In this document: one piece after another, positions 4,295 to 46,975 of the stretch
Numbering within the stretch: the stretch's first letter is position 1
How the letters are laid out: every line of letters begins with the position of its first letter
Assembly (NCBI GenBank): GCA_944323695.1
Contig: CALUTI010000006.1
Span: 1-64,000 of the forward strand
Direction of reading: 5' to 3'
DNA: 64,000 nucleotides
Origin: Candidatus Gastranaerophilales bacterium
GTDB lineage: Bacteria; Cyanobacteriota; Vampirovibrionia; Gastranaerophilales; Gastranaerophilaceae
Made by a program: the position numbers and the translations under genes
The notes under the pieces: generated by a model
The model's input: only the letters and a program-made list of their open reading frames with translations
The model's database searches: none
What the model was told of the DNA's origin: nothing

Positions 4295-4324
4295 AAAAAG
4301 AACCCCTAAAAAGGGGTTCTTTTT
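4295..4324. terminator. Bidirectional rho-independent terminator
   Basis: Perfect 12-bp stem (AAAAAGAACCCC, 6-base loop, GGGGTTCTTTTT) between two convergent genes. It serves the SIMPL gene on plus and prepilin gene 1 on minus, whose stop codon overlaps the stem end. Confidence 0.9.
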
Positions 4325-5275
4325 AATTTGGGTAACCGTCAGGAATTTTCCAGCCGCTCAATTGAATTACCGCGCCACAAACCTGTCCTTGCCCTTCTGT
4401 ACTGCAAGAAAAATTCTGCACAACCTCGGGATTATCTTCAATAACAAAATTAGGCTGCATCATTTCTTCTGCTGTATATCCGCTGCCTTCGCCATATAAT
4501 TTTAATCCGTAACCTATATTAAATGTTTTTCCTGAATCTACAAATTCGCCGTCATCATTGTTACTTCCCGCAGATTTACCGGGATTACCGGGTGAAAAAT
4601 ACATTGCAAATATATCCTTTCCTAATATATTAGGTCCTGACTTTCCGTTTATATCCGCAAAAACCCACACATGCGGATAATAAGTATCCGCGCCTGCCCA
4701 TGTATAAATATATGTACCATCAGCAAGCACAAATACACCATGCGTAGTACTGCTTATAGTGGAGACAACATTACCATTTAATCCATTTATAGCTTCAATT
4801 GAACAGTCTTTTAATGCAGGAAAGCATTCTTTAGTGACTTTTAGATACGGGAATATATATGTTTGCCAAAAGTACTTTATTCTCTGCGCATCATTTGTCG
4901 GATACTGATTCCATGACCATGTATTATAATCTCCGTGCTCAACTTTTGCAAGTTCAAACGCGTTCTTTAAAGTCGCATAAGCTTTTTGTAAACGTGTTAT
5001 AGTCGACTTTTCCTGATAATTACTTATTAATGTAGGGATAGTCATTGCCGCCACAACGCCAATTATTCCTAAGGTTATTAACACCTCTGCTAATGTAAAT
5101 GCCTTATTTACTCTTATGCGATAGTCAGGAATTATTTTCTCGACGACGCTCCCGCCGCCGGCTCCGCTATGGTCTCGAAAACAATTCCTGACTATCGCTA
5201 TACCTTCAAAACTCTTGTTATCACTACCTAGGAGAGACGCCCCCCCCCGTTTCTGAAATTCTTCATCATCTTCAT
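4323..5275 (-). CDS. Prepilin-like protein 1, G9-tract switch (out of frame as read)
   Basis: A type IV pilin / pseudopilin-like protein. The conserved helix KAFTLAEVLITLGIIG is followed by a roughly 250-residue variable, probably extracellular domain with few cysteines. The only well-placed start is ATG at 5275, 8 bases after AGGAG. After MKMMKNFRN comes a run of 9 G (5240-5248). As read, that frame stops after 15 codons (TAG, 5228-5230). With one more G, or a -1 shift on the tract, the frame runs unbroken to 4323 and gives 317 residues with a 59-residue leader before the cleavage site. The leader includes an 81-bp palindrome (5118-5198) read in frame. The ribosome binding site lies 8 bases after the trpS stop codon, so co-transcription with trpS is likely. 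The open frame alone would start only at an unlikely GTG inside the helix (5084). Confidence 0.8.
5118..5198. repeat. 81-bp palindromic element inside prepilin gene 1
   Basis: Arms GCGATAGTCAGGAATT (5118-5133) and its exact reverse complement (5183-5198) enclose a centre containing the sequence of TCTCGACGACGCTC type. A close relative lies at 34761-34839 in prepilin gene 3. The outer arms differ between the two copies but remain complementary in each. It is read through in frame in the switched-on version. Confidence 0.85.
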
Positions 5276-6801: not shown

Positions 6802-7712
6802 TTAATACGGGTAATCGTCTTTAAACTCCCAATTATCCAGCCATAAAAGATATGTACACCCGTGACGCGTATAAGTTTCACTGTCCTCATTGTAATCTTC
6901 ACCGCTATATGGCTTACATGCAATATTCATTGTACTCGTACCCATATTCACATCAGGATAGTTTACCGTATATCCATTCATGACATCCTCACGAGTCACG
7001 CCTTCAGTATAACCGTATGGTAATAGGCCTTTACTCATATATTCTCTCAACATTACATAACTAAAATTATCTTTACCTATTATCGCATCTTCTTTTATAT
7101 TGGTGCGGATAGAAAAAGAAATAGTATTACCATAGGAATAACACGCTACAGAAACGCCAACACCATCACTTAATATAAAATTGTCTGTATAGACACCTGC
7201 AGACTGAAGCTTACAATTTGTCATAGCCTCATTTCCTGTTCCGCAATCACGAGATATTTTTATATATGGTCTTAAGTATGTATCAACAAACCATTTTGAA
7301 TTTTCTGCACTATCCGTATATTTAATAGTCTGCCATGTATTAGGATCACCATATTCTGCTTGGGCAAATTTCAAGGCTTGTGCTATTTCCGCATATGCTT
7401 TTTTTACCTTTGTTGCGGTAGCTTTTTTCTGATAATTTGCAACTAAAGTCGGGATTGTCATTGCGGCAACTACTCCAATTATGCCAAGCGTTATCAATAC
7501 TTCTGCCAGGGTGAAGGCAGATTTCTTTTTAAAGTCGTTAGGACGATAAGACGTTAAGACGTTAAGTTCTTTAATGTCATTCTGAGCGCCAGCGAAGAAT
7601 CTCTTGAGATCCTTCGGCTTCGCCTCAGGATGACGGATTTCCGCAAAACTCTTGTTATCACTACCTAGGAGAGACGCCCCCCCCCGTTTCTGAAATTTTT
7701 CATCATCTTCAT
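6802..7712 (-). CDS. Prepilin-like protein 2, G9-tract switch (out of frame as read)
   Basis: The open frame from 7497 encodes the pilin helix SAFTLAEVLITLGIIG and a roughly 210-residue C-terminal domain with several cysteines ending in NWEFKDDYPY. The start codon is ATG at 7712 behind AGGAG (7721-7725). A run of 9 G occupies 7677-7685 and the starting frame stops at TAG 7665-7667. One extra G gives an uninterrupted 303-residue protein with a 66-residue leader. The leader's first 23 residues are nearly identical to those of prepilin gene 1, but its inserted palindrome (7576-7634) is from a different repeat family. It has its own promoter (7737-7765) and also lies 61 bases after tolC. Confidence 0.8.
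7576..7634. repeat. 59-bp palindromic element inside prepilin gene 2
   Basis: Outer arms GTCATTCTGAG (7576-7586) and CTCAGGATGAC (7624-7634), inner arms GAAGAATCTC / GAGATCCTTC around TT (7594-7615). It is translated in frame in the switched-on version (EIRHPEAKPKDLKRFFAGAQ). Just beside it, at 7543-7567, are short tandem repeats of the type AAGACGTT. Confidence 0.85.
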
Positions 7713-7725
7713 AAGCTTTTCTCCT
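7665..7725 (-). promoter_or_regulatory. G-tract switch region of prepilin gene 2
   Basis: Nearly identical to the switch of prepilin gene 1: Shine-Dalgarno AGGAGA (complement 7720-7725), ATG 7712, nine G at 7677-7685, complementary TCTCCT (7667-7672), stop TAG 7665-7667. Confidence 0.75.
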
Positions 7726-26127: not shown

Positions 26128-26206
26128 GGAGGTTAAAAAAATGAACGTAAACACGCATCACAACTATATTTCCGTCAGGGGGGGGGGGGCAGTAGCTTAA
26201 CCTCCT
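26128..26206 (+). promoter_or_regulatory. G-tract switch region of prepilin gene 5
   Basis: Shine-Dalgarno GGAGGTTAA (26128-26136), ATG 26141, twelve G at 26178-26189, stop TAA at 26198-26200, and TTAACCTCC at 26197-26205. The last is an exact 9-base complement of the Shine-Dalgarno. The sequence is otherwise unlike the other four switches, so the pairing is conserved while the bases are not. Confidence 0.75.
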
Positions 26207-27516
26207 GTAATACGTTTAGCTGGCATTCCGAACTCGGCTCGGAATCTCTAAATGAGATGCTAAAACCAATTCAGCATGACAAGGAATATTCCCTCGCCCT
26301 ACGGGAGAGGGATAGGGTGAGGGGGCTATCCTCTCATAAGGAGATGCTGAAACAAGTTCAGCATGACAAGAATATTATACCCTCTACCTTTGGAGCAAAG
26401 GGAGCCAACGAGGTACGAGTTGTGCGACCCTGCTTCCGAAGCGAAGTGGAGGTGAGAGGGGTTGGGGTGAGGGTCAAGGCTGCATTCACTCTCGCTGAAG
26501 TCTTAATTACTTTAGCTATTATCGGTGTAGTTGCTGCTATGACTATTCCAACACTGGTTGCGAATTATCAAAACAAAACCTGGAGTACTTCCGCATCTGT
26601 CTTTGAAAGAAAGTTAGAAGAAGCTTTAAAAACTATGAATACCCAGCAATCTCTTGCAGGTTACAAAAATACTGCTGACTTTGTCGCCGAATTAGGGAAA
26701 CACTTCAAGATTAATAAAGTTTGCCAAAACAGCGATATTAAATCATGCTTTAATGAAAACATTACCTGGGAAATCATAGATATCTCCAGTGGTTCTAAAT
26801 CTGAAAAAATTGTTATGCCGGAAATTAAAACTGCTGCTGATTTAGGACAAGACGACTGGAATTCTGAGGCTTTAGGGGTTCAATTCGCTAACGGTACAAC
26901 AGGGATTATTGCCTACAATCCTGATTGTAATGAACAGCCATATACTAATACTTTTACAGGCACAAGCTGTATCTCTCTTATCTATGACACCAACGGATTT
27001 AAATCCCCTAATACCTACACTAAAGATGTCAGAGAGATTAATTCATTTTTAAAATCTTGTGCCTTCAAATCCGGTAGTACATGCTTTTCTGCTCCTTTTA
27101 AACCTGATTCGCTAACCAAAGCTGAGTGCGAAGAATTAAAAGGCGAGCTTGGAATAGAGGAATGCTACTATAACATAGATTATTGGTCAGGGGCTGTTAA
27201 AGCTTGCGGTGGTGTTAGTAAGATGCTAACACAAACACAATTAAATGATATTGCAAATTACGTATACAATACAACAGGAATTAACTACATTGCAACAAGA
27301 ACTAACGGAAACATATTCGGTTTAACACTTGATTATGACAAAGTAGCAGAGTTAGGTTTCACAGCATCTGCAGGTACATCCACAGCCTTCTTAGTTTTCA
27401 CAAATGATGAGGTAAGCAAAGCCCAAACGTACCGTCTCGAGTTTTACCCCACGAAAACGTTTTGGGGACTAGATGCCCGCTCTAGCCTTCGACAGGCGGT
27501 TTGTCTTGGGGAGTAG
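26141..27516 (+). CDS. Prepilin-like protein 5, G12-tract switch (out of frame as read)
   Basis: The start ATG at 26141 has GGAGG 8 bases upstream. After 13 codons a run of 12 G occurs and the frame ends at TAA 26198-26200. With one more G the frame continues to 27516 as a 458-residue protein. The open frame itself has an ATG only at 26257, without a ribosome site and in the middle of repeat sequence. The leader before KAAFTLAEVLITLAIIG would be 115 residues and is built almost entirely from dispersed repeats (26222-26475). The 340-residue mature part is cysteine-containing and variable. Its C-terminus (after FYPTKTFWG) runs through another palindrome-like stretch, CTAGA / TCTAG near 27465-27482, and may have been altered by insertion. 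Confidence 0.78.
26222..26475. repeat. Cluster of four palindromic repeat elements inside prepilin gene 5
   Basis: Four blocks follow each other: one with CCGAACTCGGCTCGGAATCTC ending in GAGATGCTAAAACC and TTCAGCATGAC (26222-26286); one with CCCTCGCCCTACGGGAGAGG and a GGGTGAGGG end (26291-26325); a second copy of the GAGATGCTGAAACAAGTTCA type (26331-26372); and a long block from CCCTCTACCTTTGGAGC to GGGGTGAGGGTC (26381-26475). All are open in the frame of the pilin helix. Confidence 0.75.
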
Positions 27517-34003: not shown

Positions 34004-34920
34004 TTATTCCGCTTCTTTACAACTGTGTGCACCATCCCAAGATAATTTATCATGACAATGTAAATAATCCAAATTCTTATTATAAATTACCCAGGCAGTA
34101 CATCCTTGACCGGAAGTAATATCATTCACTTCAGGATTACAAAAATCTTCAAACGAATAGTGACCATCTTTCATACCGCGTGGGAAAAATCCTTTGGAAT
34201 CAAAATCAAAATAAAATCTGTTTTTACCAAGTACACTGTCTTTTCCCTGTGGCAATATAACATATAAACACCCTGTCTTATTTGTAAACCAACCAAGCGA
34301 TACATAAGTACCATCCTGCAAAATGAATTTACCTTCAACAGGAGAATCCCCTTTGCCAGTTTGAACCCTATTCGCTTCAGATCTTAAAGTACCGTCTAAG
34401 CTATATGATGCCCCGGGAAAACACACCTTTCCGACTTCGCATTGCTTGGATACTTTTAAATACTTTTTAAAACGTTCAATAAATAATTTCTGCGCGCTGT
34501 GATCATATATCTTGTTGCCTTCTTCATCAACTTCTCCTGTATCAGTTGCTGTCATACCCCAAGTATCTATTGTTCCATACTCTGCCTGCACCATTTGATA
34601 CGCTGATGCAAATGTTGAATATACCTTTAACAATTGCGATACTGTCTGACGTTCTTGATACTTTGCAATTAATGTCGGGATTGTCATCGCTGCGACCACA
34701 CCGATTATTCCGAGCGTTATCAACACCTCTGCTAATGTGAACCCCATATTTACTTTTATACAACAAGCAGGAATTATTTTCTCGACGACGCTCTCACCTC
34801 CGGCTCCGCTATGGTCTCGAAAACAATTCCTGCTTGTTGCTATACCATCATCAAAATACTTGCTATTTCTACCTAGGAGAGACGCCCCCCCCCGTTTCTA
34901 AAATTTTTCATTAACTTCAT
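34004..34920 (-). CDS. Prepilin-like protein 3, G9-tract switch (out of frame as read)
   Basis: The pilin helix MGFTLAEVLITLGIIG at 34747 and below leads into a roughly 225-residue variable domain with paired cysteines. The switch start is ATG 34920. Nine G lie at 34885-34893 and the frame stops at TAG 34873-34875. One added G gives 305 residues with a 60-residue leader, through a 79-bp palindrome (34761-34839). Unlike genes 1 and 2, an ATG immediately before GFTL (34747) could serve as a normal short-leader start, but no ribosome site precedes it. The Shine-Dalgarno TAGGAG contains the panD stop codon, so translation is probably coupled to panD. Confidence 0.8.
34761..34839. repeat. 79-bp palindromic element inside prepilin gene 3
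   Basis: Arms CAACAAGCAGGAATT (34761-34775) and its exact reverse complement (34825-34839). The centre is nearly identical to the element at 5118-5198, while the outer arm bases differ in a compensated way. Confidence 0.85.
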
Positions 34921-43872: not shown

Positions 43873-44903
43873 TTTTCCATACAAATGACTTTTTTGGACC
43901 CACTTTTACCTGAACACAAACGTTGATATTCATACTTATCGCCACCACGCCAAGAAATTCTAATCATAAGAGCATTTGAATAATTACCACCATATGCGCT
44001 TGGACAATTAGCAGGATAATCTACCCAATAATCGCTGATAGAATAATTGCCTGGGTATTGATTAAATATATTAAGTGCTTCATTATAATTTGGAAGCCGC
44101 ATGCCGGCTTCACTACATTGTTTGTTTGCTCCTGCCCATTTATCATTGGTGTTGCCGGATGGATAATCTCCACAGTATTTATAATCAGGTGTATTAACGG
44201 CACTTTCAGAACAATCGACTACTGTACCTCCAGAAAATTCCATTACACATTTGCCATTATAATCATTCCCCGCACAAATATTTAACGCCACATTTAGACC
44301 CCTGATATCTCCTGCATTATCAAAAAATTTATTTGGTTTCCCAAAACCGGATACATCATACAAAATTGAAAGGGCATCTGTTCCAATGCTTATATTATCT
44401 TTATCACCTCCTATTGAAATTATATCATTACTAAATGTATCAGACTTTGCATTTTTATTATAAGCAATAATCGCATTAATGCCATTTGCAAATTGAACTC
44501 CAACAGTTTCTGAGCCATATTCTTCATGACCAATTTGTTTAGAAGTTTTCAATTTTTCAATATCAAAAACTTCTTGATTTTCTCCAACATGAATTTCTTT
44601 TGAAAAACAATCAGTTACGTTTTCACAAACATTTATTATTTTCAAATTCTTTCCAAGTTCTTCAACAAACTGTGCAGTACTACTATATCCGGATAATTTG
44701 TTTTGCATATTCATAACCTTCAGTGCTTCGCCTAACTTCCTGTTAAAAACATTAGAAGCATTATTCCAAGATTTTTTCTGATAATCTTGTACTAATGTCG
44801 GGATTGTCATTACCGCCACAACACCTATTATTCCTAATGTTATCAATACCTCGGCAAGTGTAAAACCAGAGCCCTTTTTATATTTTTTTATCATTCCAAA
44901 CAT
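43869..44903 (-). CDS. Prepilin-like protein 6, ordinary leader, no G tract
   Basis: Start ATG at 44903 has a strong AGGAGG 5 bases upstream; the longer frame to 44942 lacks one. The leader MFGMIKKYKKGSG is short and positively charged, and cleavage before FTLAEVLITLGIIG is expected. The mature part, about 330 residues, has many cysteines and ends in a domain with SGTVVDCSE and ISDYWVDYPANCPS. It shows how these genes look without the switch. The mature part after the helix (SWNNASNVFNRKLGEALKVMN) is similar to prepilin gene 5 (TWSTSASVFERKLEEALKTM), so the two are close paralogs. Confidence 0.88.
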   Translation of the reverse strand: MFGMIKKYKKGSGFTLAEVLITLGIIGVVAVMTIPTLVQDYQKKSWNNASNVFNRKLGEALKVMNMQNKLSGYSSTAQFVEELGKNLKIINVCENVTDCFSKEIHVGENQEVFDIEKLKTSKQIGHEEYGSETVGVQFANGINAIIAYNKNAKSDTFSNDIISIGGDKDNISIGTDALSILYDVSGFGKPNKFFDNAGDIRGLNVALNICAGNDYNGKCVMEFSGGTVVDCSESAVNTPDYKYCGDYPSGNTNDKWAGANKQCSEAGMRLPNYNEALNIFNQYPGNYSISDYWVDYPANCPSAYGGNYSNALMIRISWRGGDKYEYQRLCSGKSGSKKVICMEN

Positions 44904-46115: not shown

Positions 46116-46975
46116 TCATTGTTCCAAACATTCCCAATAGGTTTTTGTTTCATCGTCAGGGCACACATTTTTTAATGCCCAAGAAGTGCAGCCAATCCCA
46201 TTTTGCACATCTGTAGAATTTTTTGAACAATAAGTATTGTGGTCAGCATAATTCCAAAAACTGTATGTACCTTCACCTAATGGTACAAGTCTTCGGGTAT
46301 TATTATTTATCCCAAAATAAAAAATATCATGTCCGATAGCATTTGGACCGCCTGAACCGTTCACGTCAATAGATATCCAATTGGCAAAACAATTATACCT
46401 GCCGCCTATTGCACTGCCATCAGCCAGAATATGTCTGGGGACTTGCGGACAGCCGGGTGCCTGTTCCAATGTATTTCCTGCGTAGTCTTTAATTAAATTG
46501 TTTCCGTCAGAATCTTTATATTTAAGTATCATATATATCCCATCATGACCAAAATTTGATATATCAGAAAAACTAATCCTGCCGCCTTTCCATAATGCAT
46601 CAAAAAACGCCGTTTCACCCGCGTTGTTAATAGTATCAGTCATTGATCCGTAAAATTCATTCTGCAAAGGTATTAATGCCTGCATTAACGTTGAATATGA
46701 TTTTTTAAAGCCGGATTCCAGCGACTTTACCCGATACTTTGCAATTAACGTCGGTATCGTCATTGCTGCAACTATACCGATTATTCCTAATGTTATTAAT
46801 ACCTCTGCTAATGTGAAACCTCTCCTTGATTTATAATACTTCATATTAGAATTATAAGTTAGCACAACCGTTTTGTCAAACTCTGCACTATGATTTAATA
46901 TATCCCCAAAACGCCTGCTATGACTACTTAGAGGAGACGCCCCCCCCCGTTCTCAAAATTTTTCATAATATTCAT
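46116..46975 (-). CDS. Prepilin-like protein 4, G9-tract switch (out of frame as read)
   Basis: Helix RRGFTLAEVLITLGIIG is followed by about 215 residues with several cysteines and a glycine-rich IDVNGSGGPNAIG stretch. The switch start is ATG 46975 behind AGGAG (46984-46988). Nine G lie at 46940-46948 and the frame stops at TAA 46928-46930. One added G yields 286 residues with a 53-residue leader, the shortest of the five and without a recognisable palindrome. An internal in-frame ATG at 46823 (MKYYKSRRGFTL) would produce a normal short leader, but has no strong ribosome site. It has its own promoter (47000-47028). Confidence 0.8.

Follow-up and report, generated by a model that had tools for sequence, protein, structure and literature searches.

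Stop-free, repeat-bearing slots in the predicted leaders of a G-tract prepilin family from a Gastranaerophilales genome

The window analysed here is a stretch of 64 kb (positions 1-64000 of contig C6) from a Gastranaerophilales genome of 1.73 Mb in 19 contigs. Gene 2, encoded on its reverse strand, begins with a Shine-Dalgarno (SD) sequence (AGGAG, 7721-7725) and nine leader codons (ATG AAG ATG ATG AAA AAT TTC AGA AAC, 7686-7712), followed by a run of nine guanines (7677-7685), a conserved post-tract element CGTCTCTCCTAGGTAGTGATAACAAGAGTTTT (7645-7676) and a pilin body that starts at FTLAEVLITLGIIGVVAAMTIPTL and carries the N_methyl signature PF07963 (6802-7515). The tract has an OFF length: with nine Gs, the ATG frame encodes MKMMKNFRNGGGRLS and then stops 9 nt after the tract at a TAG (7665-7667) of the conserved element, which also holds a third-frame stop, while ten Gs would join the ATG and pilin frames. 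The first 20 or so residues that an earlier note on this DNA had described as shared by genes 1 to 3 do not, as assembled, form a single open reading frame. The segment between the tract and the pilin body, called the slot below, is 161 nt long (7516-7676) and free of stops in the pilin frame. It contains, in frame between the tract and the prepilin helix, a palindrome of 59 nt (7576-7634) that is translated as HPEAKPKDLKRFFAGAQND and folds into an imperfect hairpin (-28.8 kcal/mol, z -4.3, none of 200 shuffles as good). Between the tract and the start of the palindrome lie 42 nt, which include the stop that closes the OFF frame. It is a real dispersed repeat with 34 matches across the genome, and related repeats were found in 17 of the 44 genomes searched, other genera included; comparison with Rfam gave no match above the gathering score. 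Seventeen match rows, including some inverted self-matches of palindrome copies, are located no more than 650 nt downstream of a G tract, in sequence that by a rough estimate makes up about 1.2% of the genome.

Gene 1, also on the reverse strand, has a G9 tract at 5240-5248, an 81-nt slot palindrome at 5118-5198 (family 1; -45.9 kcal/mol, z -8.7) and a pilin body at 4323-5099. The gene 2 palindrome is unrelated to that of gene 1, as the earlier note had proposed. Genes 1 to 3 carry two families and not three different ones, since the 143-nt slot of gene 3 (34742-34884, reverse strand), next to a G9 tract at 34885-34893, holds the family of gene 1. Another class A prepilin gene on the reverse strand has a G9 tract at 46940-46948 and a 122-nt slot (46818-46939) with an older NYNSNM-type leader and no palindrome (z -0.2). 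Across the family, genome repeats such as that of gene 2 accumulate in slots, always in frame. On the forward strand, gene 5 starts with a class B cassette leader (26141-26177), followed by a G12 tract that is OFF as assembled (26178-26189) and a composite slot of 295 nt without a stop in the pilin frame (26190-26484). An ordinary tract-less prepilin start, MFGMIKKYKKGSG/FTLAEV (44805-44876, reverse strand), served as internal comparison. All five runs of at least nine G or C in the window sit inside leaders of prepilin genes. Genes 1, 2 and 5 score above the PF07963 cut-off and show the N_methyl motif with Glu5 and a hydrophobic helix. As assembled, the earliest pilin-frame start codon of genes 1 and 2 falls within this helix, and mechanical ORF calls place their starts there, at 5084 and 7497; annotation of such MAGs probably truncates prepilins or misses them.

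One 5' cassette is present about 45 times in the genome, besides smaller classes. It runs from an SD through ATG, 5-10 codons, G9 or G10, the conserved element and the variable slot to the FTLAEVLITLGI helix, with the recurrent layout AAGGAGA, ATG, about nine codons, G9 or G10, C[GA]TCTCYYCTARRTAG, a AGCAAGGGTTTT-like stretch, slot and helix; the conserved element holds stops in both non-pilin frames. We inspected 68 runs of at least nine G in the genome, those at contig ends being such that not all could be followed or classified, and 45 reach the prepilin motif through an open frame. The position of cassettes at contig ends is probably due to an assembly broken by repeats. About 45-50 pilin-type genes have a guanine run near the start and an apparent on/off switch, in a genome with 83 prepilin N-terminal motifs and one prepilin peptidase match. 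A cross-species set of at least 157 cassettes from at least 11 Gastranaerophilales MAGs was assembled, from which copies with identical surroundings were discarded; its counts are those of a sample, motifs served to place the start codons, and tract lengths are assembly consensus values that may mask mixtures.

Among the matches listed, the 150 class A tracts comprise 125 G9, 18 G10 and 7 others, and 22 of the 150 genes are ON as assembled, the majority being OFF. At G9 the ATG frame of the main cassette terminates 9 nt beyond the tract, a position kept exactly in 148 of 150 class A cassettes among the matches listed, and at G10 it joins the pilin. The ATG frame does run through the slot into the pilin in the G10 genes L075, L077, L081, L092 (twice) and L121. 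Leader length is a multiple of 3 in 143 of 153 cases (among the matches listed), although it mostly ranges from 15 to 30 nt; together with the dominance of G9, this means that G9 nearly always gives the same OFF frame. Tract length differs between related genes, as in L078 (G9) and L226 (G10), whose pilins are 94.7% identical, and in L211 (G11) and L289 (G9), with pilins 93.5% identical. A G8/G9 difference between related genes was also seen, and most other close pairs have G9 in common. These genes show features of simple-repeat phase-variable genes, namely a G/C homopolymer of at least 7-8 in or before the ORF, a length that sets the frame, and length differences between related genomes. Class B tracts are 10-12 long with mixed frames, and six prepilin loci carry a poly-C tract, C9 and OFF in five and C10 and ON in one. 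These poly-C cassettes (L079, L082, L085, L089, L097, L115) form a class of their own (MLKKVVTKAVQIVAPP...), in which palindrome family 1 is read in another frame. Two interrupted tracts, GGGGTGGGG in L159 (G000:C1:124134) and GGGGGGGGA in L160 (G000:C3:24773), keep nine bases and the OFF frame, with slot and pilin open.

Among the matches listed in the cross-species set, the pilin frame is free of stops in 154 of 157 slots, which are 22-600 nt long, so the claim that the frame is always kept stands across genomes. In a subset of 123 slots (about 24 kb), the pilin frame contains no stop while the other two contain 523 and 717. This asymmetry is not explicable by composition and argues that selection acts on the joined frame, which has to be read on at least some occasions; judged from its open frame, the slot is translated when the gene is ON. 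Constraint on the slot is nevertheless relaxed, with a pooled dN/dS of 0.57 for slots and 0.146 for pilins over 13 pairs, some members of which are common to several pairs so that not all are independent. Slots also turn over faster than pilin bodies. L110 and L283 have pilins 99.7% identical, whereas the left part of the slot has been replaced (302 vs 221 nt, a difference divisible by 3), and L106 and L107, from the same genome, have pilins 97% identical and unrelated slots. In L241 (BRZ_LT__bin40), a 254-nt slot carries repeat sequence just before the predicted cleavage site, the other slots of this genome being 92 or 29 nt. The slots of L088, L160 and L283 contain a second, relict FTLAE, a sign that, in addition to insertion, different prepilin 5' ends may have been joined. 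The 92-nt slots (for example L239, L215, L103) have the older leader NYNSNMxNYKxRKG with an in-frame ATG not far ahead of the predicted cleavage site, usually without an SD; an ordinary prepilin with a short leader may once have started at this ATG.

Taken together, we consider it likely that the slot represents the variable segment of a predicted cleavable leader in a large phase-variable prepilin family. Slipped-strand gain or loss of a G would switch each gene in living cells: at G9 ribosomes would run into the stop that follows the tract by 9 nt (OFF), and at G10 the ATG and pilin frames would be joined (ON). The prepilin peptidase is predicted to remove everything upstream of FTLAEV, for which reason the leader would tolerate extra codons. 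Palindromes and other genome repeats would arrive as insertions or through recombination between the numerous paralogous 5' ends, and this tolerance would let them be kept if stop-free and frame-preserving. Tolerance of insertions in a leader that is cut off, one of the options of the earlier note, is the best reading of the slot because slots are loosely constrained and are exchanged more quickly than the pilin body; the in-frame slot replacement and the varying orientation and frame of family 1 agree with it. Predicted leaders, at about 20-210 aa, are mostly longer than known prepilin leaders, which have 6-26 aa and end in Gly (PMC4471445); among the matches listed, 69 of the 72 long-slot genes have Ala at -1. 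Ala at -1 is likely accepted, since the short-leader, tract-less prepilin matches of the same genome also mostly have Ala (14 of 20, a few of which may not be true genes). Long leaders with Ala, a residue shared with tract-less genes, thus weaken the case for leader cleavage more than they weaken prepilin identity.

The near-constant OFF frame of G9 is explicable by selection for default OFF or by recoding at G9. In the latter case, the conserved G9 would be slippery, RNA polymerase adding a G or ribosomes shifting by -1, and some 45 prepilins would be co-expressed at a low level without DNA change, with G10 alleles, fixed in frame, as a rare full-ON state of a two-level switch. The predominance of G9, the -1 relation kept as leader length changes by codons, the stops conserved directly after the tract and the 9-OFF/10-ON layout repeated by poly-C cassettes are all in its favour, and plain phase variation does not require leader lengths in multiples of 3. 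However, related genes differ in tract length (G9/G10, G9/G11, G8/G9), class B tracts are 10-12 long, a modal G9 is usual among phase-variable tracts, and folds of the tract region from four cassettes show no significant structure relative to shuffles (z -1.4 to 1.2). Phase variation is placed first as length changes were seen and no recoding signal was found; we regard programmed slippage at G9 as unlikely and probably absent. The same folds, not significantly better than shuffles, led us to reject sequestration of the SD by the post-tract TCTCCT. Internal restart after the tract was also rejected as a general mechanism. Among 127 OFF cassettes, an in-frame ATG occurs in 79 but is accompanied by an SD-like motif in only 7, and 28 lack any pilin-frame start codon at all. 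An ATG, GTG or TTG does occur together with a loosely SD-like motif in 30 of the 72 long slots. Loss of mismatch repair as the cause of unstable tracts is not supported, given the MutS-type genes present in the genome.

A job for the hairpin itself, as a required frameshift stimulator, RNA processing site or spacer, had been the other option of the earlier note. Slots longer than 125 nt are more structured than shuffles (mean z -5.6; 63 of 77 long slots with z below -3), but structure arrives with the repeat families, which are found outside slots too. The 92-nt leader, nearly the sole type in two species, has little structure (mean z -1.8), twelve cassettes among the matches listed have slots of at most 50 nt, and the slots of L114, L118, L174 and L187 are empty, with unchanged layout. 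Slots are accordingly mostly unstructured in E08__bin114 and BRZ_LT__bin40, an outcome that the earlier note had held against its own proposal, and not so in the other genomes; slots mostly out of frame, its other counter-indication, were not encountered. The usual distance between a slippery site and its -1 frameshift stimulator is 5-9 nt. The gene 2 palindrome is 42 nt away and behind a stop, and this spacing together with the empty slots led us to reject such a stimulator; a need for the hairpin in any of these roles appears very improbable. A slightly less improbable idea, which we still hold to be quite unlikely, is that the slot peptide is a selected functional domain built from repeats. 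A slot dN/dS below 1 and the single reading frame used by the gene 2 family in slots (21 of 21 apart from inverted self-matches) would fit a selected domain, but across genes the family 1 palindrome differs in the orientation and frame in which it is read (single frame calls being approximate in gapped alignments), slot contents are unrelated over their 22-600 nt, and a slot was swapped beside an unchanged pilin. That the genes are remnants and the slots junk in dead genes might be suggested by the many copies OFF as assembled; some 24 kb of slot sequence open in the pilin frame and a low dN/dS in the pilins already refute it, and we give it hardly any credence.

Poly-G contingency genes of Campylobacter and Neisseria, including Neisseria pilC, likewise have an in-frame G/C homopolymer with a mode of 9 and frame-set ON/OFF states (PMC6321876, PMC5953494). 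Phase-variable poly-G tracts of Campylobacter have length 9 in 53% and 10 in 26% of cases (PMC6321876), and the modal length in Neisseria is 9 (PMC5953494); with 83% of class A, G9 is more dominant here than in Campylobacter. Unlike in these bacteria, prepilins alone hold most tracts (45 of 68 G runs plus the six poly-C cassettes), the modal length is OFF whatever the leader length, and the tract belongs to a leader whose removal is predicted. Rickettsia palindromic elements are dispersed palindromes in frame within protein-coding genes (Ogata 2000, 2002, as summarised in PMC10969869). The likeness is one of arrangement, dispersed palindromic repeats lying here too in frame in otherwise intact coding genes; by that account the Rickettsia elements affect mature proteins of unrelated genes, whereas the insertions studied here occupy one position, in the leader, of one gene family. 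With type IV prepilins (class III signal peptide), the genes share the hydrophilic leader, FTLAE start, hydrophobic helix and N_methyl motif, and differ in the predicted leader length and in the Ala, mostly, at -1 of long-slot genes. In the open library, no paper was found that pairs Gastranaerophilales with 'phase variation' or 'phase-variable'. The family points to a large switchable repertoire of surface fibres in uncultured gut relatives of cyanobacteria and offers a natural case in which a removable leader would shelter a mutable switch and incoming repeats. Its 150 replicate slots allow a test of whether repeats spread where protein sequence is unconstrained.

L099, L100 and L101 have G9-G10 tracts without a prepilin motif in the scan and may be other phase-variable genes. 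Similar cassettes of relatives (L242-L244 in G013, L204 in G024) have other leader lengths and G7, G9 and G13 tracts. Finally, the tract-less prepilins L354 and L359 carry extra in-frame leader sequence too, with a relict KKAFTLTE and part of palindrome family 1.
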